A stretch of DNA of 64,000 bases, taken from a bacterium (GTDB lineage Bacteria; Zhuqueibacterota; QNDG01; DSAB01). Under the pieces are notes generated by a model. The model made no database searches and was not told where the DNA came from. It saw only the letters and a list, made by a program, of their open reading frames with translations. A program made the translations under genes and the position numbers. Position 1 is the stretch's first letter. Every line of letters starts with the position of its first letter. This document shows, one piece after another, positions 15,154 through 57,239 of the stretch. The stretch is taken from contig JAFGDT010000098.1 in the NCBI GenBank assembly GCA_016931965.1, positions 1 through 64,000 of the forward strand, read 5' to 3'.

Positions 15154-16872
15154 CTATCCTTTAGGATCCATTTTAAAAACTCTTACACCCAGCCCCTCAT
15201 TTTTTTTGTCTTCGTAAATGAGTTTAAGAACCGCCGGCACTTTCTCATTATCAAATAAAAATCTTAAATTTGGATATTTTCCCAAATACCTCTCTGAAAC
15301 CACCATATATTCCACATTTCGATGATTTGCATAGGCCAATATACGGTCAAAATGATCGTTATCAGGGAAAGTGACACCTTTTCTAACATGATAACTCCCA
15401 GCATAAAAATCGACCGATTTGTTGTAACTCATTAGAATCGGTTCATGCGTTACATGCTCTTTTAACCATAAGCCAGCTTTTTTGAGTTCAACAGCATCTT
15501 CCCAAAAATCGACCGAATATTCACTTCTCGATACAACCTTACCCAATTCTGGTATGTAACAAAATAGTGATATAAATCCAATAACAAAGAAAAAAGCAAT
15601 AACATGCAGTTCACTTTGCTTTAATGTAATTGATTTTTTTTGAATCCAAGAATTTACGCCTCGTTTTAGCCAAACAGTCAGTTCATGAGCCCCATGTCCC
15701 ATCCATACAAAACAAATTACCAAACCGGGCAATAAATAACGATCATTGATATGAAATAATGGAACCATCACAAACCAAAACAGACCTACAAATGAAAGTA
15801 AATAAAAATAAATTTCAATCTCCTTAATAGGCAGAGCAAACGAAAAAAAGCCTAAAACAAGAAGGCTTAATAGGACAAATCCAAAAAGCTGTGGAATGGC
15901 ATATTTTGTGATTCGATAAAAATTTGTAATATATTTTTTAACAATCAACGATAAGTCTATGGAACTTGTCTCTTGACGATTTTCACCAACAATCTTTAAA
16001 AAATTGCCTTCATGATAAATGGCATCAATGGGATTTATTGTATTGTTATCTGATAAAGTATCAAGATTGATTTCTTCGTTATTAAACAATTGCGCTTCAA
16101 ATTGCTGATTCGCATATATTTTGGAACTGATAGTCCAACGGCCTGTTTCCTGATGAAGATACAATAAATAAGGAGTGGCAATAAAAATAAAGCCAACCAC
16201 TCCAAGACCGATGCTTAACAATCGCCTATTCTTTGATTTTGTATGATCAAAAATAACCAGTATTCCAAAAAAAAGGATAAAAATAACAAAATATCCGATA
16301 CCTTCCGGTTTTGTTAAATAGGAAAAACCAAAGAAGATACCGGTGATGATTGAGAGCTTCAATGAATTTTTCCTGAGTGTTTTCCATCCAAAATAGATAC
16401 CCATCATAACAAAGAAAATGAGTGTGGGTTCAGCCAGTGTTGTGGTTGTAGAAAAAGCCAAAGGGGAATAAAATGTCAGTAAACCGACCGCCCAGAAACC
16501 GCTCACACGACAAAAAAGTTCCTTGGTAAAAAGATAAACAGGAATAAGAATCAAAATTCCACAAATCAAAGTAACAATTCTACCGGCGAGTTCAAAATTC
16601 GGAATCACGAATGAAAACAAAGCGATACAAATTGAGTAGAAGGGAGACCAATACGGATGTAATGCTTGAAGAATCTGACCTTTAGAAAATAATACGGCCA
16701 GTTGAAGATAATGAGGTTCATCCCAACCGATAGTAAAATGGTATCTCATTAAAAACAATCTAAAAACAAGGGCCAAAACGGTAAAACCGAACAATGTAAG
16801 ATGCTCGTTATTTAGTCTATTTTTCACTTTTAACAAATTCACTCTTAAACTCTTACACGCTATCCGCCTCAT
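15154..16872 (-). CDS. ArnT/PMT-like GT-C membrane glycosyltransferase
   Basis: Polytopic protein of 572 residues with about 11-12 transmembrane helices and a C-terminal soluble domain. The first extracytoplasmic loop has the acidic signature IGWDEPHYLQLA expected of GT-C enzymes, followed by HPYWSPFYS; the PMT_2/ArnT families use polyprenyl-phosphate sugars as donors on the periplasmic side. The C-terminal part (from about 450) carries ELKKAGLWLKEH and MVVSERYLG, common in these proteins. No good ribosome-binding site precedes the first ATG, so the true start may be a little further in. It probably adds a side sugar after flipping. Confidence 0.8.
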   Translation of the reverse strand: MRRIACKSLRVNLLKVKNRLNNEHLTLFGFTVLALVFRLFLMRYHFTIGWDEPHYLQLAVLFSKGQILQALHPYWSPFYSICIALFSFVIPNFELAGRIVTLICGILILIPVYLFTKELFCRVSGFWAVGLLTFYSPLAFSTTTTLAEPTLIFFVMMGIYFGWKTLRKNSLKLSIITGIFFGFSYLTKPEGIGYFVIFILFFGILVIFDHTKSKNRRLLSIGLGVVGFIFIATPYLLYLHQETGRWTISSKIYANQQFEAQLFNNEEINLDTLSDNNTINPIDAIYHEGNFLKIVGENRQETSSIDLSLIVKKYITNFYRITKYAIPQLFGFVLLSLLVLGFFSFALPIKEIEIYFYLLSFVGLFWFVMVPLFHINDRYLLPGLVICFVWMGHGAHELTVWLKRGVNSWIQKKSITLKQSELHVIAFFFVIGFISLFCYIPELGKVVSRSEYSVDFWEDAVELKKAGLWLKEHVTHEPILMSYNKSVDFYAGSYHVRKGVTFPDNDHFDRILAYANHRNVEYMVVSERYLGKYPNLRFLFDNEKVPAVLKLIYEDKKNEGLGVRVFKMDPKG

Positions 16873-17079
16873 GAAAAGGAGCTTTTTGTTTAATAGTCAT
16901 CGTGGTCATTTTCTTTAATCCGAGCAAAAATATCCAATAATTTAAAGCAATTTCTATGCCATATAGTTATTCTTCACTTAATTCCCGACCTATCATCAAA
17001 CAGGACAAAAACAACCATATAATACAATACCCAACCCCTGATCCAATATCATCTATACACCTGAAATAAATTACCCTTA

Positions 17080-49342: not shown

Positions 49343-50800
49343 TTAGGCAGCACCATAACCCGTTAAAACAACAAAAACGGTACGGACAAGTATTTTAAAA
49401 TCCAACCACAGAGAAAAATGATCAATATACCAGAGATCCATCTCCATCCATTGCTCAAAATCAATTTTATTCCTTCCGCTGACTTGCCAGATACAGGTTA
49501 ATCCCGGTTTCATGCTGAGACGTCTCCGCTGCCAAGTTTCATACATTTCAACTTCATCGGAAAGAGGCGGACGTGGACCCACCAAACTCATATCACCCTT
49601 GAGAACATTGAAAATTTGAGGATATTCATCAATGCTGAACCTTCGCATAAATCTACCAAATCGAGTCACTCGAGGATCCCTTTTCATTTTAAAGACAGGT
49701 CCATTCATTTCATTTTGTCTTTTTAATTCTTTTTTTCTGACTTCCGATCCAACATACATAGATCGAAATTTATATAATGTAAATTTTCTTCCGTTGAGTC
49801 CACAACGTGTTTGACGGAAAAAGATGGGTCCCCTGGAAGTTATTTTGACGCCTATAGAAGCAATTAAAAAAACAGGAAACAACAGAATCAGGAATAGTGT
49901 AGCAATAAAAATATCAAAAATCCTTTTAAAAAACAATTGCCATTCTTTGGCCATAGAAGTCTGAAACATGATGAGAGGAATTCCCGCAAATTCAGACTGA
50001 CGAATTCGAGCCAATTTCGGTTTAAATAAATCAACTGAAATGGCTGTATCGATCCCCTCTCTCTCACAGTGATTGATCGCTTCTTCGATTCGATTCAGCC
50101 ACATTCTTGGAACCACGAAAATCACCCGATCAATTACAAATTCACGGAGGATCCGAGGAATATCTCTAATACGACCAATCACTTCATAATCCATAATACT
50201 TTTACCCAATAATTTTGGATCATCATCGATCAAACCAATAATTTTCAATCCCCAGTTCGAATGCGCTTTAACAAGATTAATAAATTCTTGGGCCCGCTTT
50301 CCTGTTCCAACGATAAGCATATTAACAAGACTGTATCCCTGCCGAAATGTATAATCCAAAAACCACCGCCATAAAGCTTTCTCAATACCCAGGCATATCA
50401 CTCCTGTTATTGCAAAAACGGCGACGTAAAGTCTACTCGTCAAGGTCATTTTGAGAAGAAAAACGACATATCCCAAAACAATAACCGACACGATACATGT
50501 CCGAAATACTTTCCAAAGAATTTCAAGAAAAATTTTAGTTCGAAATCCTACATAAACACCATCAATTGACATTAAACTGATCCACACAGGAATCGTAATC
50601 AGAACGAGCCAAATATGATTCTCTAAAAAATATAGAGCCCCATCCAATGATATTTGTGTGGCATATGCCATGCCTCCCGTTGTCAAGAATGGTCTTATCA
50701 AAAGGGTAATAAAATAGGCGATGATAAAAGATATCATAATCATAATAACATCTGTTATTTTCATCAAACGAATAAAAAATATTTCTTTCTCTCGAACCAT
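49343..50800 (-). CDS. WbaP-type polyprenyl-phosphate phosphoglycosyltransferase (initiating enzyme)
   Basis: Initiates repeat-unit assembly by transferring a sugar-1-phosphate from a nucleotide sugar to undecaprenyl phosphate at the inner membrane. Four N-terminal helices (about residues 10-130) are followed by a CoA-binding_3/Rossmann-like domain (about 140-260), then a re-entrant helix (KRIFDIFIATLFLILLFPVF) and the catalytic domain with KFRSMYVGS, the catalytic-type DEYPQIFNVLKGDMSLVGPRP, and KPGLTCIWQVSGRN. The start is the ATG giving MVREKEIFF, three bases after the epimerase stop with AAGGGTG upstream; the 12-residue ORF-track extension is dropped. The sugar cannot be read, though Gal, Glc or GlcA-type donors are common. 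Confidence 0.92.
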   Translation of the reverse strand: MVREKEIFFIRLMKITDVIMIMISFIIAYFITLLIRPFLTTGGMAYATQISLDGALYFLENHIWLVLITIPVWISLMSIDGVYVGFRTKIFLEILWKVFRTCIVSVIVLGYVVFLLKMTLTSRLYVAVFAITGVICLGIEKALWRWFLDYTFRQGYSLVNMLIVGTGKRAQEFINLVKAHSNWGLKIIGLIDDDPKLLGKSIMDYEVIGRIRDIPRILREFVIDRVIFVVPRMWLNRIEEAINHCEREGIDTAISVDLFKPKLARIRQSEFAGIPLIMFQTSMAKEWQLFFKRIFDIFIATLFLILLFPVFLIASIGVKITSRGPIFFRQTRCGLNGRKFTLYKFRSMYVGSEVRKKELKRQNEMNGPVFKMKRDPRVTRFGRFMRRFSIDEYPQIFNVLKGDMSLVGPRPPLSDEVEMYETWQRRRLSMKPGLTCIWQVSGRNKIDFEQWMEMDLWYIDHFSLWLDFKILVRTVFVVLTGYGAA

Positions 50801-50802
50801 AC

Positions 50803-51762
50803 TTACACCCTTGAATCCGATTCCTGAACATACCACTCAATAAATTTCTCAATGCCTTTTTGAATAGACACTTTTGGATAAAAATCCAATTCGGCTTTGG
50901 CTTTTTGAATATCTGCATATGTAACAGGGACATCACCTGGTTGATCGGGAAGTGATTTTATTTTGGCATTTTTACCTAATGCATTTTCCAGCAGACGAAC
51001 AAGATGTTTCAATTCAATTGTTTGCGACTCACCCAAATTATAAATATGATATCCTTTACACCTGTCAATTGCGTTTTCTATACCATCCACAATGTCTGTT
51101 ATATAGGTATAATCTCTACGACTTGTCCCATTTCCAAAAAAGGGAATTTCTTTTTCTTCTGAAATGAGTCTTGTAAATGTATATATCGCCATATCGGGTC
51201 GCTGTCTCGGACCATAAACAGTAAAAAATCGAAGACAGGTTACTGAAATAGAATAAAGATAAAAATAAGTGTATGCCAATAATTCACCAGCTCTTTTTGT
51301 AGATGCATAGGGCGAAATAGGGCAATCTACGGAATCATCCTCACTGAAGGGAACTTTGCTATTTTTACCGTAAACAGAGGAAGATGAAGCAAAAATAAAT
51401 TTAGAAACTTGGAATTGTGAGCTCATTTCTAATAGATTTAAAGTACCTTCGACATTGACTTTTTGGTAAAGATGAGGTTGTTGAATAGACGGACGAACAC
51501 CCGCTCTGGCAGCCAAATGAACGATAGCATCAAAATGCGTATTTTTGAACAGATCTTGAAGAAGTTTTTTGTCTAAAATATCCCCCTCGACCAACCGATA
51601 ATTCGGATGTCTTGACACTGTAACAATATTTAGACGTTTTATTCTTGGATCATAATACGAATTAAAATTATCTAAACAAACAACATCATCACCTCTTTCA
51701 ATCAAACGTTCACAAAGAAAAGATCCGATAAAACCGGCTCCGCCAGTGGCAAGAACACGCAT
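50803..51762 (-). CDS. UDP-glucuronate 4-epimerase-like SDR
   Basis: Extended SDR of 319 residues. Cofactor motif VLATGGAGFIGSFLCERL, FASSSSVYGKN, catalytic YxxxK in SPYASTKRAGELLAY, and RFFTVYGPRQRPDMAI. The late segment LPDQPGDVPVTYADIQKAK is characteristic of UDP-glucuronate epimerases (CapI/GAE group), which make UDP-galacturonate from UDP-glucuronate. GGAAT precedes the ATG. It sits between wzc and the initiating transferase, so its product may be a main building block. A GalE-like activity remains possible. Confidence 0.87.
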   Translation of the reverse strand: MRVLATGGAGFIGSFLCERLIERGDDVVCLDNFNSYYDPRIKRLNIVTVSRHPNYRLVEGDILDKKLLQDLFKNTHFDAIVHLAARAGVRPSIQQPHLYQKVNVEGTLNLLEMSSQFQVSKFIFASSSSVYGKNSKVPFSEDDSVDCPISPYASTKRAGELLAYTYFYLYSISVTCLRFFTVYGPRQRPDMAIYTFTRLISEEKEIPFFGNGTSRRDYTYITDIVDGIENAIDRCKGYHIYNLGESQTIELKHLVRLLENALGKNAKIKSLPDQPGDVPVTYADIQKAKAELDFYPKVSIQKGIEKFIEWYVQESDSRV

Positions 51763-51772
51763 GATTTATTCC

Positions 51773-54079
51773 TTAATATCGATAGTAGCTATAACCCTCA
51801 TGAGCAACCTCAACGCCAGCGCAATTGAGAATCGCACCGATCACTTTTGCTTCCACATTTTGAAATAGCTCCAATTTCCGTTTTATATCTTCTCTGTGCG
51901 ATTTACCGGCTCTGATTAAAACAGCAACGCCATCAACAAGGGTCCCCAAAATGATAGCATCCGTAGCAGCCAAGAGAGGTGGAGTATCAAAAATAACAAA
52001 ATCATATCGCTTGGTTATTCCCTCGATAAATCTTTTCATTCTGATCGAACCCAAAAGCTCAGATGGATTGGGTATAAGAGAACCACACGTAATTAAAGAT
52101 AGATTCGGGATATAGGTTTCATTGATAACATTATCAAAAGATACAACACCAGTGAGATAATTGGTAAAACCCGGTTTCTTGGGGCAATTAAAACTGTTGT
52201 GCAATACGCCACGTCTCAGATCTGCATCAATCAAAAGAGTTTTTGATTTCTGTTGGGCCATTGTAATAGCCAAATTCGCCGCAGTAAATGATTTACCCTC
52301 TCCGGGTGAAACACTTCCAATAGCAATAGACCGAATAGGACCAATATTCTTTGAAAAAATAAGATTTGTACGTAATGACCGGTAAGCCTCACCCACAGGT
52401 GTTGGGGAATAATCATGCGTCACAATTTGTGAACTGATACTCTTCGCCTTCTCAGAATCCTGAAGTTCATAATCATCAAATTTGACTTTGGGAATAACAC
52501 CCAACAGAGGCAGTTTCAAGTAACGTTTTACATCCTGGTGTGTTCTGATCCTTTTATCTGCTATCTCCCAGATAACGGCCATCACAATCCCGAGGAGAAA
52601 TCCCAATACAGCTCCCATAAAGGCTTTGGTGATTTTATCTCCGGTTCGCGGAGCCGAAGGAGGTAAAGCTGGATCAATGACGTATGCATTTTCTGAAATA
52701 ACAGCCTCAGACAGCTCAGCTTCTGTAAATTGCCTGAGATACAAATTGTATATATCCTCATTGACTCTCCTCTGCCTTTCAAGTTTAATCAATTTCAAAT
52801 CCTCTTCAGGAAACGTATCCAATTCTTTTTGAAGTTCTTCCATCTGATCTTCGATTTGAGTAATCTGTCTATCCAATTCTATTAATTTATTCTTCGCCAA
52901 TGATACAATCCTATCTTCAAGAAATAACAATCTCGCATTACTTTCAATAACTTCTGGGTTCGTTTCTGGCAAATCTCTGTCCCAACGCAATCCTCTTATG
53001 AATTGCCTTTCATCTTCATATTGTTGTCTGATCAATTCCATATCGGAATCACCATCAAAAACCTCATTTTGAGCGATTTGTCTATATACATAAGGCGCAT
53101 CGATATCCATATTAAAATCGGCGGATGTAAAATCCATCAGTCCCAAACAAAAAATCAATTCATTGCGGAAAGTAGCCAATCTTGTACTGTCACCATGTAT
53201 TGCATTTAATCGATTGATTGTATCCTGTGTTTCTTGGTCAAGTCCCATTAAGTGTTCATTTCTGAAAGCTTTCAGTTGGCTGTCGTATTTATCGAGCTCT
53301 TGTTGCACCACTCTTAATTGATTTTCTAGAAAATTACTAAAAGCACGACTATTTTCATCCCTCATTTCAGAACTTTTCTCTATTAAGATTTCGGCCAACA
53401 TATTTACAGTTTGAGCCAAAAGTACTGGATCTCGATCCGCTAAGTAGATACCAATTTGATTATTTAAAGGTGGATTTGACCAAATACTTAATCTCGACTG
53501 AAGCGATCGTGAAGTCGATTGAAAGTGATGAATCCTAAAAGTCACATCTGTGTGATTGATCACTGCGTTTGGATTTAAGGAGAAAGAAAATCCATTGTAA
53601 GATACAGTATCTTCAATAAAGCGTTCAACTTGGAGGCTGTCCAACAGATCTGATTCAAAATACAAGGCACAGATGTTCGTAGGATAAAAACGCAATGTAT
53701 AAGTTCCTGGCACGGGTTCTTTCGTTGTCGAAAAGATTTTAAAAACATCCTGTCGGTTAATGAATGGTTGATCTTCCTGCTGAATCAACTCAACCGCCAA
53801 TCCGAGTGTTGCAGTCACCTCTTCGGCAAATGTACGGCTCTGCAACCGTGCAATACGGCTTTGTACAAGACTTTCCGGAACACCCCCAATATTTTCAAAG
53901 TGGATAATTACCTCGGTATCATAAATGGGTGGTTGTCTTTTCAAATAAAGAACCCATGGAATAGTAATCCCTAAAAAAGCAATTCCAATTAACCACCACC
54001 TCCGAATGATTCCCTTTAAATATCGAGAAAAATCAATACTTTCTTCACTTTCAACCGGATCTTCAAAAAAATTATCCAT
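51773..54079 (-). CDS. wzc: Wzc-type polysaccharide co-polymerase with BY-kinase domain
   Basis: Inner-membrane chain-length regulator and tyrosine autokinase of 768 residues. The N-terminal Wzz domain has its first helix at about 29-48 (WWLIGIAFLGITIPWVLYL). A long periplasmic part includes coiled-coil stretches (about 235-275 and 385-440). The second helix lies near 490-510 after the proline-rich PALPPSAPRTGDK. The cytoplasmic kinase has Walker A SVSPGEGKSFTAANL, Walker A' LLIDADLRRG and Walker B-type FVIFDTPPLL, and ends in a tyrosine cluster GYSYYRY for autophosphorylation. An AGGAG sits five bases before the ATG. It follows wza by about 40 bases. No partner phosphatase (Wzb) gene is in the window. 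Confidence 0.93.
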   Translation of the reverse strand: MDNFFEDPVESEESIDFSRYLKGIIRRWWLIGIAFLGITIPWVLYLKRQPPIYDTEVIIHFENIGGVPESLVQSRIARLQSRTFAEEVTATLGLAVELIQQEDQPFINRQDVFKIFSTTKEPVPGTYTLRFYPTNICALYFESDLLDSLQVERFIEDTVSYNGFSFSLNPNAVINHTDVTFRIHHFQSTSRSLQSRLSIWSNPPLNNQIGIYLADRDPVLLAQTVNMLAEILIEKSSEMRDENSRAFSNFLENQLRVVQQELDKYDSQLKAFRNEHLMGLDQETQDTINRLNAIHGDSTRLATFRNELIFCLGLMDFTSADFNMDIDAPYVYRQIAQNEVFDGDSDMELIRQQYEDERQFIRGLRWDRDLPETNPEVIESNARLLFLEDRIVSLAKNKLIELDRQITQIEDQMEELQKELDTFPEEDLKLIKLERQRRVNEDIYNLYLRQFTEAELSEAVISENAYVIDPALPPSAPRTGDKITKAFMGAVLGFLLGIVMAVIWEIADKRIRTHQDVKRYLKLPLLGVIPKVKFDDYELQDSEKAKSISSQIVTHDYSPTPVGEAYRSLRTNLIFSKNIGPIRSIAIGSVSPGEGKSFTAANLAITMAQQKSKTLLIDADLRRGVLHNSFNCPKKPGFTNYLTGVVSFDNVINETYIPNLSLITCGSLIPNPSELLGSIRMKRFIEGITKRYDFVIFDTPPLLAATDAIILGTLVDGVAVLIRAGKSHREDIKRKLELFQNVEAKVIGAILNCAGVEVAHEGYSYYRY

Positions 54080-54119: not shown

Positions 54120-54833
54120 TCACCAATATCCTGATCTCAATCTAAGATAAAGCAAAACCATTGAGGCAAGAAGATTGATGATATTGATATAAAAATAGAA
54201 ATCCATCCGACCCTGAGCAGGAGCAATAATTTGATCCCCCGATTCTATACCTGCATCTTCGAGTGAATACCCTTCCTCGAAGCTTTCCAGCAGATTTTTT
54301 TTCACAACCTTACCCCCTCTTTCCACCACCATACCTGATAAGTCACAATTGTACGTCGGCCCACCAGCCAATGTAACCAGATCATGAAGCGAAGCGGATG
54401 GATCAATACGATAAGCTCCTGGTCTTTGAAAAGCACCCTGCATCGTCACCCGAATCAGGGGGCGAACACTGACATAGAGATTTTTCATGTATGCTTCAAG
54501 TTTCTCCCTCAGGCTTTGCATCAGCTCAACCTCCGTTAATCCGCTCACCCGTACTTCTCCAATAAGTGGCATAATAATATAACCCCTTGAATCAATTCCA
54601 TAATCACCGCTCAGGATATCATTACCCACCGCTTCCAGATCCAATTTCATGACCTGGATCCTAACAGCATCTCCTGGTCGAAAAATAGTCAACGTCTTGG
54701 CGGTATTACTCCATTGATAATCGGTCGTCAATTGTGCATTCAACAGTGATGAAAATGATCCTCCTAACAGAAATTGACCTATGATAAAATATTTAAAAAC
54801 AATCCGCATGATGTTACATTTAGGAACAGACAT
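54120..54833 (-). CDS. wza: Wza-type outer-membrane polysaccharide export protein
   Basis: Export channel subunit of 237 residues. A hydrophobic N-terminal segment (IVFKYFIIGQFLLGGSFSSLLNAQ) is a signal peptide without an obvious lipobox Cys. A Poly_export domain (IFRPGDAVRIQVMKL to LTEVELMQSL) is followed by one SLBB domain (VRVTMQGAFQRPGAYRIDPSASLHDLVTLAGG), and a C-terminal hydrophobic helix (INIINLLASMVLLYLRL) could cross the outer membrane. It is shorter than E. coli Wza and has one SLBB instead of two. GGAAGGGA seven bases upstream supports the first ATG. First gene of the export block after the terminator. Confidence 0.88.
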   Translation of the reverse strand: MSVPKCNIMRIVFKYFIIGQFLLGGSFSSLLNAQLTTDYQWSNTAKTLTIFRPGDAVRIQVMKLDLEAVGNDILSGDYGIDSRGYIIMPLIGEVRVSGLTEVELMQSLREKLEAYMKNLYVSVRPLIRVTMQGAFQRPGAYRIDPSASLHDLVTLAGGPTYNCDLSGMVVERGGKVVKKNLLESFEEGYSLEDAGIESGDQIIAPAQGRMDFYFYINIINLLASMVLLYLRLRSGYW

Positions 54834-54861: not shown

Positions 54862-54922
54862 ATTACACAAATCCATTAAATTATTGCAAATAATATACCA
54901 TGAAAAGACACCCTAATTCTAT

Positions 54923-54953
54923 AAAAAAACATCCGTTGAACTCACCGGATGTT
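54923..54953 (-). terminator. rho-independent terminator after the STAS-HTH gene
   Basis: On the minus strand AACATCCG and CGGATGTT form a perfect eight-base stem around a ten-base loop, followed at once by seven Ts. It lies 36 bases after the stop of the STAS-HTH gene. It marks the end of the transcript from the mre/lgt/TPR/GT5 block and the start of the export operon. Confidence 0.88.
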
Positions 54954-54988: not shown

Positions 54989-55693
54989 TTAACGAGAACG
55001 ATAAAAACGATACCGTTTTCCCTTCGTTTCGAGATTCAACTTTTTAAGGAGCGAATACATTCGAAACCAACCAATCTGAACCAAACCATATTTTTTCGTT
55101 CTTAATTGTTCACAAATCCCCTTGGTCCCCCAAAATGGATTCTCGATAACAATCATTTTGATTTTTTCCATTAATGGCAAATCTTTTAATGGAATCGTTG
55201 GATTTGATGAATGGGTGTTTGTCCTCTTCTGCGCGTATTTGAGAGCAGTGACAGCTTGGATATTTGAAAAATCTGAAGGTTCTTTTTTAATTGGTTGTCT
55301 TAATTCAAAATCTATATTTGAGATATCAATTCCACGGATAATGTCAAACTCGTCTATAGCCTCTTCTATCGAATCGTAATAGTTGAGAATTTTATTAAAT
55401 TCCAACATTTCAAATACTTCAAAGACTTCATAACTCATTTGAACGATCTTTAAATCCCCTCCCCGATCCTTGATATTTTTTATCTCACTCACAAAAACAC
55501 CCCACCCTGCACTACTGATATAGGTAACCCCTCCGAGATCTGCAATAATGAGGTATTTTTTTTCCTTTATTAGTTTCTCAATAACTCTTGCCAATTCCTG
55601 GCAAGTTGTTGTATCCACATATCCTAAAATCGTTATCAAAGCAATATCAAATCGTGCACCGACATCATTGACTGAGATCTTAATTCCCTGCAT
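54989..55693 (-). CDS. STAS-domain protein fused to a transposase-type helix-turn-helix
   Basis: 234-residue cytoplasmic protein. Residues about 5-110 are a STAS domain of the anti-sigma-factor-antagonist type: IADLGGVTYISSAGWGVFVSEI contains the conserved Ser pair region where SpoIIAA-like proteins are phosphorylated. A linker (about 115-165) follows. Residues about 170-234 (LPLMEKIKMIVIENPFWGTKGICEQLRTKKYGLV) resemble the helix-turn-helix found before the integrase core of IS3-family transposases, but no integrase core follows and the gene ends YRFYRSR. So it looks like a phospho-switch joined to a DNA-binding domain of transposon origin. No anti-sigma kinase lies nearby. Position before the wza operon suggests it may control it; this is inference. 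Confidence 0.8.
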   Translation of the reverse strand: MQGIKISVNDVGARFDIALITILGYVDTTTCQELARVIEKLIKEKKYLIIADLGGVTYISSAGWGVFVSEIKNIKDRGGDLKIVQMSYEVFEVFEMLEFNKILNYYDSIEEAIDEFDIIRGIDISNIDFELRQPIKKEPSDFSNIQAVTALKYAQKRTNTHSSNPTIPLKDLPLMEKIKMIVIENPFWGTKGICEQLRTKKYGLVQIGWFRMYSLLKKLNLETKGKRYRFYRSR

Positions 55694-55751: not shown

Positions 55752-57239
55752 TTATTTTTTCCTTGAAATGCATTTACTGTATAATTGAATATACTTCTTT
55801 GATGAAATATTCCATGAAAAATCTTCTCGCATACCGTTTTTCATAATTTTAAACCATAGCTTTTTATTTGAATAGGTGGCTACAGCTCGTTTAACGGCTC
55901 TTAAAACATCACTGCCATTGAAACGGTTAAAAACAAAACCTGTTCCCTTCCCAGTTTCTGGATGAAACGTCTTTATTGAATTGTATTCCTCTCCCTTTGA
56001 ATATACAATAGGGACACTACCATATTTTAGACAAGACAATTGATCTAATCCATGTGTATCATATTTTGAAGGAACAAGAACAATATCTGCCCCTGCTTTA
56101 ATAAGATGGGCTGTTGAAAGATCATAAACCAGATCAATTCCCAATCGATCACTATATTTTTTCTTGACCTGCTTAAAAAACTGATAATAGGCTTTAATCT
56201 CTTGTCCGATAAGAATTAAAACAATATTCATCTCCATCAACTTGCCAATGATCTTTTTCATGAGTGCCAAGCCTTCATCATCTATTATATTGGAGATAAT
56301 AGCGAGTACAGCCGTCTCCTCAGAATAAGGAATATGATATTTTTCTAAAAGAGCACGTTTATTCTGTTGTTTACTGCCAATGTCTTTAATACCATACTTA
56401 AAGGGTATCAAATTATCGACTTCAGGATTCCAAACACTATAATCGATTCCACTTGAAATACTGTAATATTTTTCACGACGGGAATTGAGTACTTCCTCCA
56501 TGTTATACTTGTTATTTTTGTTCGGCTGATGCGGTGTGCTATACTTGTTGCTCACGATATTAACTGCATCGGCATAAACAATTCCCGCTTTTAAAAAACT
56601 GCAGTGCCCATGAAATTCAATACCACTTCCTGGAAAAACAAAATTTCCATTGACACCCATATACGACAGACAATTTGGATGAAAGTTCCCCTGAGAATTA
56701 AAATTATGGACGGTAAAAAGTGAGGAAGTATGATGAAAAAAGGGATTGTCCTTATTCATTGTTTTGAGAAAAAAGGGTATCAAACCGGACTGCCAATCAT
56801 TACAGTGAATGACATCAGGTTGCCATTGCAGTTTCGTCAACGTTTCCAAAACACCCTTGGAAAAAAGAATAAATCGACGGTCATTATCTTGATAATCTTT
56901 CCCGTTTTTATTATCCACATAGAGGCCATCCCTAAAAAAAAATGGTTTATAATCAATAAAATATATTTGCACTTTCGAATTTGGAAGAAAAGCCGATTTT
57001 ACATTGATGCGGACGGTCTCATCTCCCAGAGGGACATCAATATCTTGAAGTCGAATCACATCGCGAAGAACATACTTGCGCTCATTCACAATTCGATATT
57101 GTGGTGTAATGACGCGCACATCATGTCCCAAATCCTTTAAGGCTTTTGGAAGCGCTCCTCCCACATTTCCCAGCTCGCCCGTATTGGTAAATGGAGCGAC
57201 CTCTGAAAAGACCATTAATATTTTGAGCATACTCTTCAT
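55752..57239 (-). CDS. GT5 glycogen/starch synthase-like protein with altered donor site
   Basis: 495-residue protein that aligns along its whole length with GlgA: KILMVFSEVAPF, GGALPKALKDLGHDVRV, DVIHCNDWQSGLIP, TVHNFNSQGNF, SSGIDYSVWNPEVD, LVPSKYDTHGLDQLSCLKYGSVP and EDFSW. Yet residues known in GlgA to bind ADP-glucose or catalyse are changed: the KTGGL loop reads NTGEL (Asn19, Glu22), the SRLTxQKG region reads SNIIDDEG (Arg to Asn, Lys to Glu), the FEPCGL Glu is Asp with Cys to His, and the later TGGL is SKGEE. This makes classical glycogen synthesis unlikely. It may be a pseudoenzyme or use another donor. GAGGGG upstream supports the first ATG. Next gene: STAS-HTH. Confidence 0.85.
   Translation of the reverse strand: MKSMLKILMVFSEVAPFTNTGELGNVGGALPKALKDLGHDVRVITPQYRIVNERKYVLRDVIRLQDIDVPLGDETVRINVKSAFLPNSKVQIYFIDYKPFFFRDGLYVDNKNGKDYQDNDRRFILFSKGVLETLTKLQWQPDVIHCNDWQSGLIPFFLKTMNKDNPFFHHTSSLFTVHNFNSQGNFHPNCLSYMGVNGNFVFPGSGIEFHGHCSFLKAGIVYADAVNIVSNKYSTPHQPNKNNKYNMEEVLNSRREKYYSISSGIDYSVWNPEVDNLIPFKYGIKDIGSKQQNKRALLEKYHIPYSEETAVLAIISNIIDDEGLALMKKIIGKLMEMNIVLILIGQEIKAYYQFFKQVKKKYSDRLGIDLVYDLSTAHLIKAGADIVLVPSKYDTHGLDQLSCLKYGSVPIVYSKGEEYNSIKTFHPETGKGTGFVFNRFNGSDVLRAVKRAVATYSNKKLWFKIMKNGMREDFSWNISSKKYIQLYSKCISRKK

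Follow-up and report, generated by a model that had tools for sequence, protein, structure and literature searches.

Two described systems come close to the protein considered here. CapS is a STAS-wHTH repressor, and its phosphorylation by the GHKL kinase CapK breaks the dimer and releases CapS from DNA (PMC13373217, June 2026). In Vibrio fischeri, the first gene of a sigma-54-activated polysaccharide locus codes for the STAS protein SypA, which is active when unphosphorylated; the enzyme SypE combines a kinase and a phosphatase activity (PMC4517449). SypA controls biofilm formation, by a mechanism and through an output that are unknown (PMC4517449). The control of surface polysaccharides by sigma-54 is a known theme (PMC3162934).

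The window, i.e., the whole stretch of 64,000 nucleotides that was analysed, belongs to a genome of the Zhuqueibacterota, the present name of candidate division KSB1 (PMC11683472). It encodes a STAS-HTH protein, hereafter copy A (Table 1), which is a two-domain protein and not a single-domain STAS protein. The first-pass annotation knew of no standard named family with this architecture, for which CapS and CapK now provide a precedent (PMC13373217, June 2026). A further correction is that copy A is one of a conserved pair, A and B, with a candidate kinase/phosphatase encoded elsewhere. Relative to CapS and SypA, what is new is the HTH class, its occurrence in the enzyme as well as the substrate, the physiology and a conservation that spans the phylum.

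Table 1. Features of the copy A locus (positions in the window)
Feature	Position	Strand	Basis or remark
STAS-HTH protein copy A	54989..55693	-	234 aa, ATG start, range including the stop codon
STAS domain, residues 1-118	55340..55693	-	Pfam/NCBIfam match, SpoIIAA fold match
Disordered linker, residues 123-165	55199..55327	-	predicted, pLDDT < 50
HTH_21-like C-terminal domain, residues 174-234	54992..55174	-	hhalign, AlphaFold, conservation, charge
GlgA-like glycosyltransferase, immediately upstream	55752..57239	-	Glyco_transf_5; conserved
Wza-like polysaccharide export protein, first gene downstream	54120..54833	-	Poly_export + SLBB
Wzc-like chain-length/ATPase protein	51773..54079	-	Wzz + AAA_31; conserved order
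NAD epimerase (GalE-like) and sugar-1-phosphate transferase (WcaJ-like)	49343..51762	-	families; conserved order
Sigma-54-type promoter TGGTATATTATTTGC (GG-N10-GC), for wza	54886..54900	-	conserved in all sampled loci of the window's order
Likely intrinsic terminator after copy A, ACATCCG..CGGATGT stem and T-run	54923..54952	-	read from sequence

Copy A resembles CapS in the order of its domains (STAS, then HTH), in its conserved STAS serine, which in CapS is GHKL-phosphorylated, and in its position at the promoter of the operon that it would control. The HTH of CapS, however, is winged and MarR/ArsR-like, whereas that of copy A is wingless and HTH_21-like, with four helices and no predicted strands. 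CapS adjoins CapK (HTH-STAS-GHKL) at immune operons, whereas copy A adjoins polysaccharide genes; no kinase of the CapK type is adjacent to it, its neighbours being glgA-like and wza. The linker of copy A is long, and the gene of its candidate enzyme, which includes a phosphatase as well, lies elsewhere. As for SypA and SypE, the likeness lies in a STAS protein at a sigma-54 polysaccharide locus, here by promoter consensus and gene order only. SypE has a candidate counterpart here, an enzyme whose kinase and phosphatase domains are read from the sequence and whose gene adjoins B. SypA is a lone STAS domain, whereas copy A has an output-like domain fused to it, and SypE is a response regulator, whereas the enzyme here is membrane-bound, with a HAMP domain and additional HTH and TPR parts.

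The N-terminal half had been read as an anti-sigma-antagonist STAS domain, and this assignment holds. Residues 16-112 match STAS in the Pfam scan (PF01740, E=8e-16), the NCBIfam model TIGR00377 matches above its cut-off, and the closest folds are those of SpoIIAA, RsbV and other anti-sigma factor antagonists, in a search with the full copy A model whose matches are dominated by the STAS domain. Ser60 and Ser61 of the SSAGWG motif are invariant, both in the aligned A and B proteins (51/51) and in the A proteins (71/71). With SSAGWG aligned to DSSGLG of SpoIIAA, Ser61 occupies what we take to be the place of the phosphorylated Ser58, and it is the predicted phospho-acceptor of copy A. While the STAS fold and this serine are shared with SpoIIAA and RsbV, copy A differs from them in its extra HTH domain and in its setting, as neither A nor B was seen to have a separate sigma/anti-sigma pair next to it.

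The C-terminal domain had been likened to the HTH of IS3 transposases. Pfam finds no HTH family in the window protein by itself, and the HTH claim therefore rests on profiles. Paralogue B of the same genome scores 27.1 bits against HTH_21 (PF13276; E=5e-6, cut-off 28.1), and 29.7 bits in a second scan. A profile of 55 C-terminal domains (A and B) matched 16 HTH_21 domains of the same phylum with an hhalign probability of 95% (E=4e-8, the hhalign E-values being those of single comparisons), and the equivalent domain of the enzyme with 98.5%. Ten controls with shuffled columns reached at most 0.5% for A and B; shuffling in the comparison with the enzyme domain gave at most 1.5%. Judged by these profiles, the C-terminal domain shares its ancestry with the DNA-binding domains of transposases, namely HTH_21 of IS3. 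The family searches that had been proposed thus recovered the STAS half in copy A and the HTH in paralogue B, not in copy A alone. AlphaFold2 models the domain as four helices with a mean pLDDT of 92 and no beta wing, i.e., as a predicted HTH-like helical domain, in line with the first-pass annotation. Its PDB matches in Foldseek are weak (E > 1) and mostly HTH regulators. UXS1_N Pfam matches in nine family members were judged spurious.

The last 62 residues of copy A carry a net charge of +11 (mean 11.0 across 71 A proteins), and the STAS part is acidic, with a net charge of about -10. The last helix, KRYRFYRSR, is nearly invariant; R227, R229, R232, S233 and R234 are absolutely invariant in the 71 A proteins, the invariant tail reaches the stop codon in all 71 A loci, and a tail of the RFYRSR type is conserved throughout. 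Helix 3, the usual reading helix, varies among orthologues and keeps mainly a hydrophobic core and a few basic positions. This variability, set against the near-invariant last helix, is the chief ground for caution on site-specific DNA reading.

In most loci of the phylum that were read, copy A lies between a cell-shape and envelope block (mreC, mreD, mrdA, rodA, lgt, TPR, glgA-like) and the wza, wzc, epimerase and sugar transferase genes. In a second phylum, wza and wzc also follow copy A directly. The earlier observation that no integrase core or other IS remains are present was confirmed: Pfam scans found no DDE integrase core in copy A, whose ORF stops after the HTH, and neither an integrase core nor an IS remnant adjoins it, its glgA-like and wza neighbours keeping their order phylum-wide. 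Compared with the IS3 and IS481 transposases (HTH_21, HTH_23), copy A has a homologous C-terminal domain, and the two HTH units of the enzyme stand in transposase order, but copy A lacks the DDE core and holds a fixed chromosomal place. PADLOC returned no defence match for A or B.

At E <= 1e-20, the STAS-HTH protein occurs in 81 of 82 genomes of the Zhuqueibacterota, in nearly all of them as two copies. It also occurs in 40/40 genomes of the second phylum, where A and B were both present in the genomes read. A tree built from the STAS part groups the A copies of the two phyla in one supported clade (95/83); the duplication into A and B therefore predates the split of the two phyla. A few other genomes carry STAS-HTH or STAS-only relatives, some of them beside a kinase/phosphatase. 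Three loci of other phyla (L200, L201 and L202) have a STAS-only relative, which adjoins a shorter relative of the kinase/phosphatase in L201 and L202; such proteins perhaps represent the state before the HTH was gained. Plasmid spread was rejected, as no STAS-HTH match was found among 72,556 plasmids. The conservation in two phyla beside polysaccharide genes suggests an ancient surface-polysaccharide regulator and not a jumping-gene leftover.

In an initial set of loci, a strict sigma-54 site was found between A and wza in 15 of 33, against 0.05 expected. Of 71 A loci, 54 carry a strict site, situated either a short distance upstream of A or downstream of it, ahead of wza; in the remaining 17, the site has a small mismatch and lies upstream of A. 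A sigma-54-type site thus lies within 381 bp of A in all 71, and the strict pattern occurred in 1/71 loci in the reverse-strand control. In the second phylum, the five loci examined yielded no sigma-54 site near copy A. RpoN is encoded in 76 of the 82 genomes of the phylum, the window's genome included, which also has 15 sigma-54 activators. A second sigma-54-type site, TGGCATAGAAATTGC, is located at 16947-16961 (-) of the window, about 75 bp before the ORF 15154-16872; a count of two in 64 kb exceeds the chance expectation only mildly. As for the terminator after copy A, its loop is too long for the terminator scanner; the stem (54929-54952 in the window) is near-constant in most related loci of the order (GCATCCG..CGGATGC), and loop lengths differ.

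Fifty loci have the site before A, and in 37 of them at least one copy of TGTTTC-N8-ACA lies upstream of the promoter (0.12 expected). This palindromic element is often tandem, with copies 18 bp apart, and stands about 80-200 bp before the sigma-54 site (e.g., L059, L061, L148); it is absent from the window and its order. It is probably the enhancer site of a sigma-54 activator (enhancer-binding protein). The element was also considered as the site of copy A and rejected, since the window's order lacks it and helix 3 of copy A does not, by eye, distinguish loci that have it from those that do not; binding by an enhancer-binding protein is the simpler assumption.

Copy B lies immediately after a membrane enzyme of about 1,170-1,480 aa, and this adjacency is conserved in both phyla. 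The enzyme comprises an N-terminal RsbW-type HATPase, two transmembrane segments, a HAMP domain, a SpoIIE phosphatase, two HTH units and TPRs. The nucleotide-binding and metal-binding motifs of its kinase and phosphatase are conserved in 21 copies. Residues 670-780 can be aligned to the N-terminal HTH region of transposases, namely to the beginning of IS481 (E=1.9e-13) and to IS3 models; A, B and the enzyme therefore have one transposase-type domain in common, and the transposase origin first proposed for the C-terminal domain is strengthened. In one example (L009:7794-11309, minus strand), the HTH pair follows the order of IS481/IS3 N-termini and precedes an acidic stretch and the TPRs. A defence role of the enzyme was dismissed, a single weak DrmC match (E=0.0014, over the HTH) being taken as HTH likeness. 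We infer that the enzyme is the most likely kinase/phosphatase for copy A; it is a candidate, its gene adjoining B and not A.

With marginally better than even confidence, copy A is regarded as a kinase/phosphatase-switched DNA-binding regulator of the adjacent sigma-54-driven polysaccharide operon. Its STAS domain would be the switch: the enzyme, or another RsbW-type kinase, would phosphorylate Ser61, and the SpoIIE phosphatase domain would dephosphorylate it. The phosphorylation state probably alters STAS-STAS pairing and, in turn, DNA binding, as in CapS. The HTH_21-like domain, presumably taken long ago from a transposase, would be the output and may bind nucleic acid at the sigma-54 promoter or close to it, either activating or repressing the operon. 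Support comes from the fixation of A and B in two phyla, A by wza-wzc and B by the enzyme, as well as from the basic C-terminal domain and its homologue in the enzyme, the conserved kinase and phosphatase motifs, the invariant Ser61, the sigma-54 sites, the presence of RpoN and the CapS and SypA/SypE precedents. The model is weakened by the variable helix 3, which is not what a regulator specific for one conserved site typically shows, by the kinase gene adjoining B, by the weak Foldseek matches of the C-terminal domain, by the absence of the TGTTTC-N8-ACA element as a binding site in the window's order and by the five second-phylum loci without a sigma-54 site. A broader proposal is made tentatively, short of even confidence: a signalling system of two phyla in which the membrane kinase/phosphatase and both of its STAS substrates incorporate a domesticated transposase DNA-binding module, the STAS-HTH proteins acting directly on sigma-54-promoter DNA as their phosphorylation state dictates and so switching surface polysaccharide on or off.

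The variable recognition helix, next to a tail that is invariant to the stop codon in 71/71 loci, would also fit a SypA-like protein switch. The C-terminal domain would then be a protein-docking module, with the enzyme's homologous domain, sigma-54, an enhancer-binding protein or the export machinery as partner, and polysaccharide control would not involve DNA binding. The occurrence of a homologous domain in the partner enzyme favours such docking, and SypA itself acts on biofilm by an unknown mechanism (PMC4517449). We nevertheless consider it rather unlikely, given that the domain is strongly basic and homologous to transposase DNA-binding domains and that the enzyme keeps both transposase-type HTH units in line.

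Ordinary partner switching, in which A and B would antagonise an anti-sigma factor and the C-terminal domain would serve just to localise them, agrees with the SpoIIAA/RsbV type of the STAS domain and with the separate RsbW-like kinases and STAS proteins that the window's genome also encodes. It is improbable all the same, as no separate anti-sigma/sigma pair was seen next to either copy and the promoter at A is of the sigma-54 type, which, to our knowledge, is not controlled by RsbW-type anti-sigma factors. The likeness to HTH_21 could in principle stem from an IS3 fragment that was fused in frame by chance or recently. This explanation, which the first-pass annotation had weighed as a fusion limited to one strain, has a negligible probability: the fusion is present in 81/82 genomes of the phylum, two paralogous fusions extend across two phyla with fixed gene neighbours, and strong transposase-type HTH_21 matches occur in only 18/82 genomes. 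Distribution and synteny rule it out.

Under the preferred reading as a DNA-binding regulator, enzyme and substrate of a single signalling circuit would both carry a domesticated transposase DNA-binding domain. The deeply conserved STAS switch with its attached output-like domain makes STAS control of polysaccharide genes testable, and copy A is a candidate surface-polysaccharide regulator for mostly uncultured phyla.

Further kinase-like genes were seen in single loci. L063 and L070 each encode a diverged second copy of the kinase-phosphatase, of 811 and 866 aa, a few genes downstream of copy B. A 278-aa protein (L087:1051-1887, plus strand), whose C-terminal part is an RsbW-type ATPase and whose N-terminus is weakly STAS-like, recalls the STAS-GHKL kinases CapK and VapK, and its gene precedes that of a membrane sensor-like protein.
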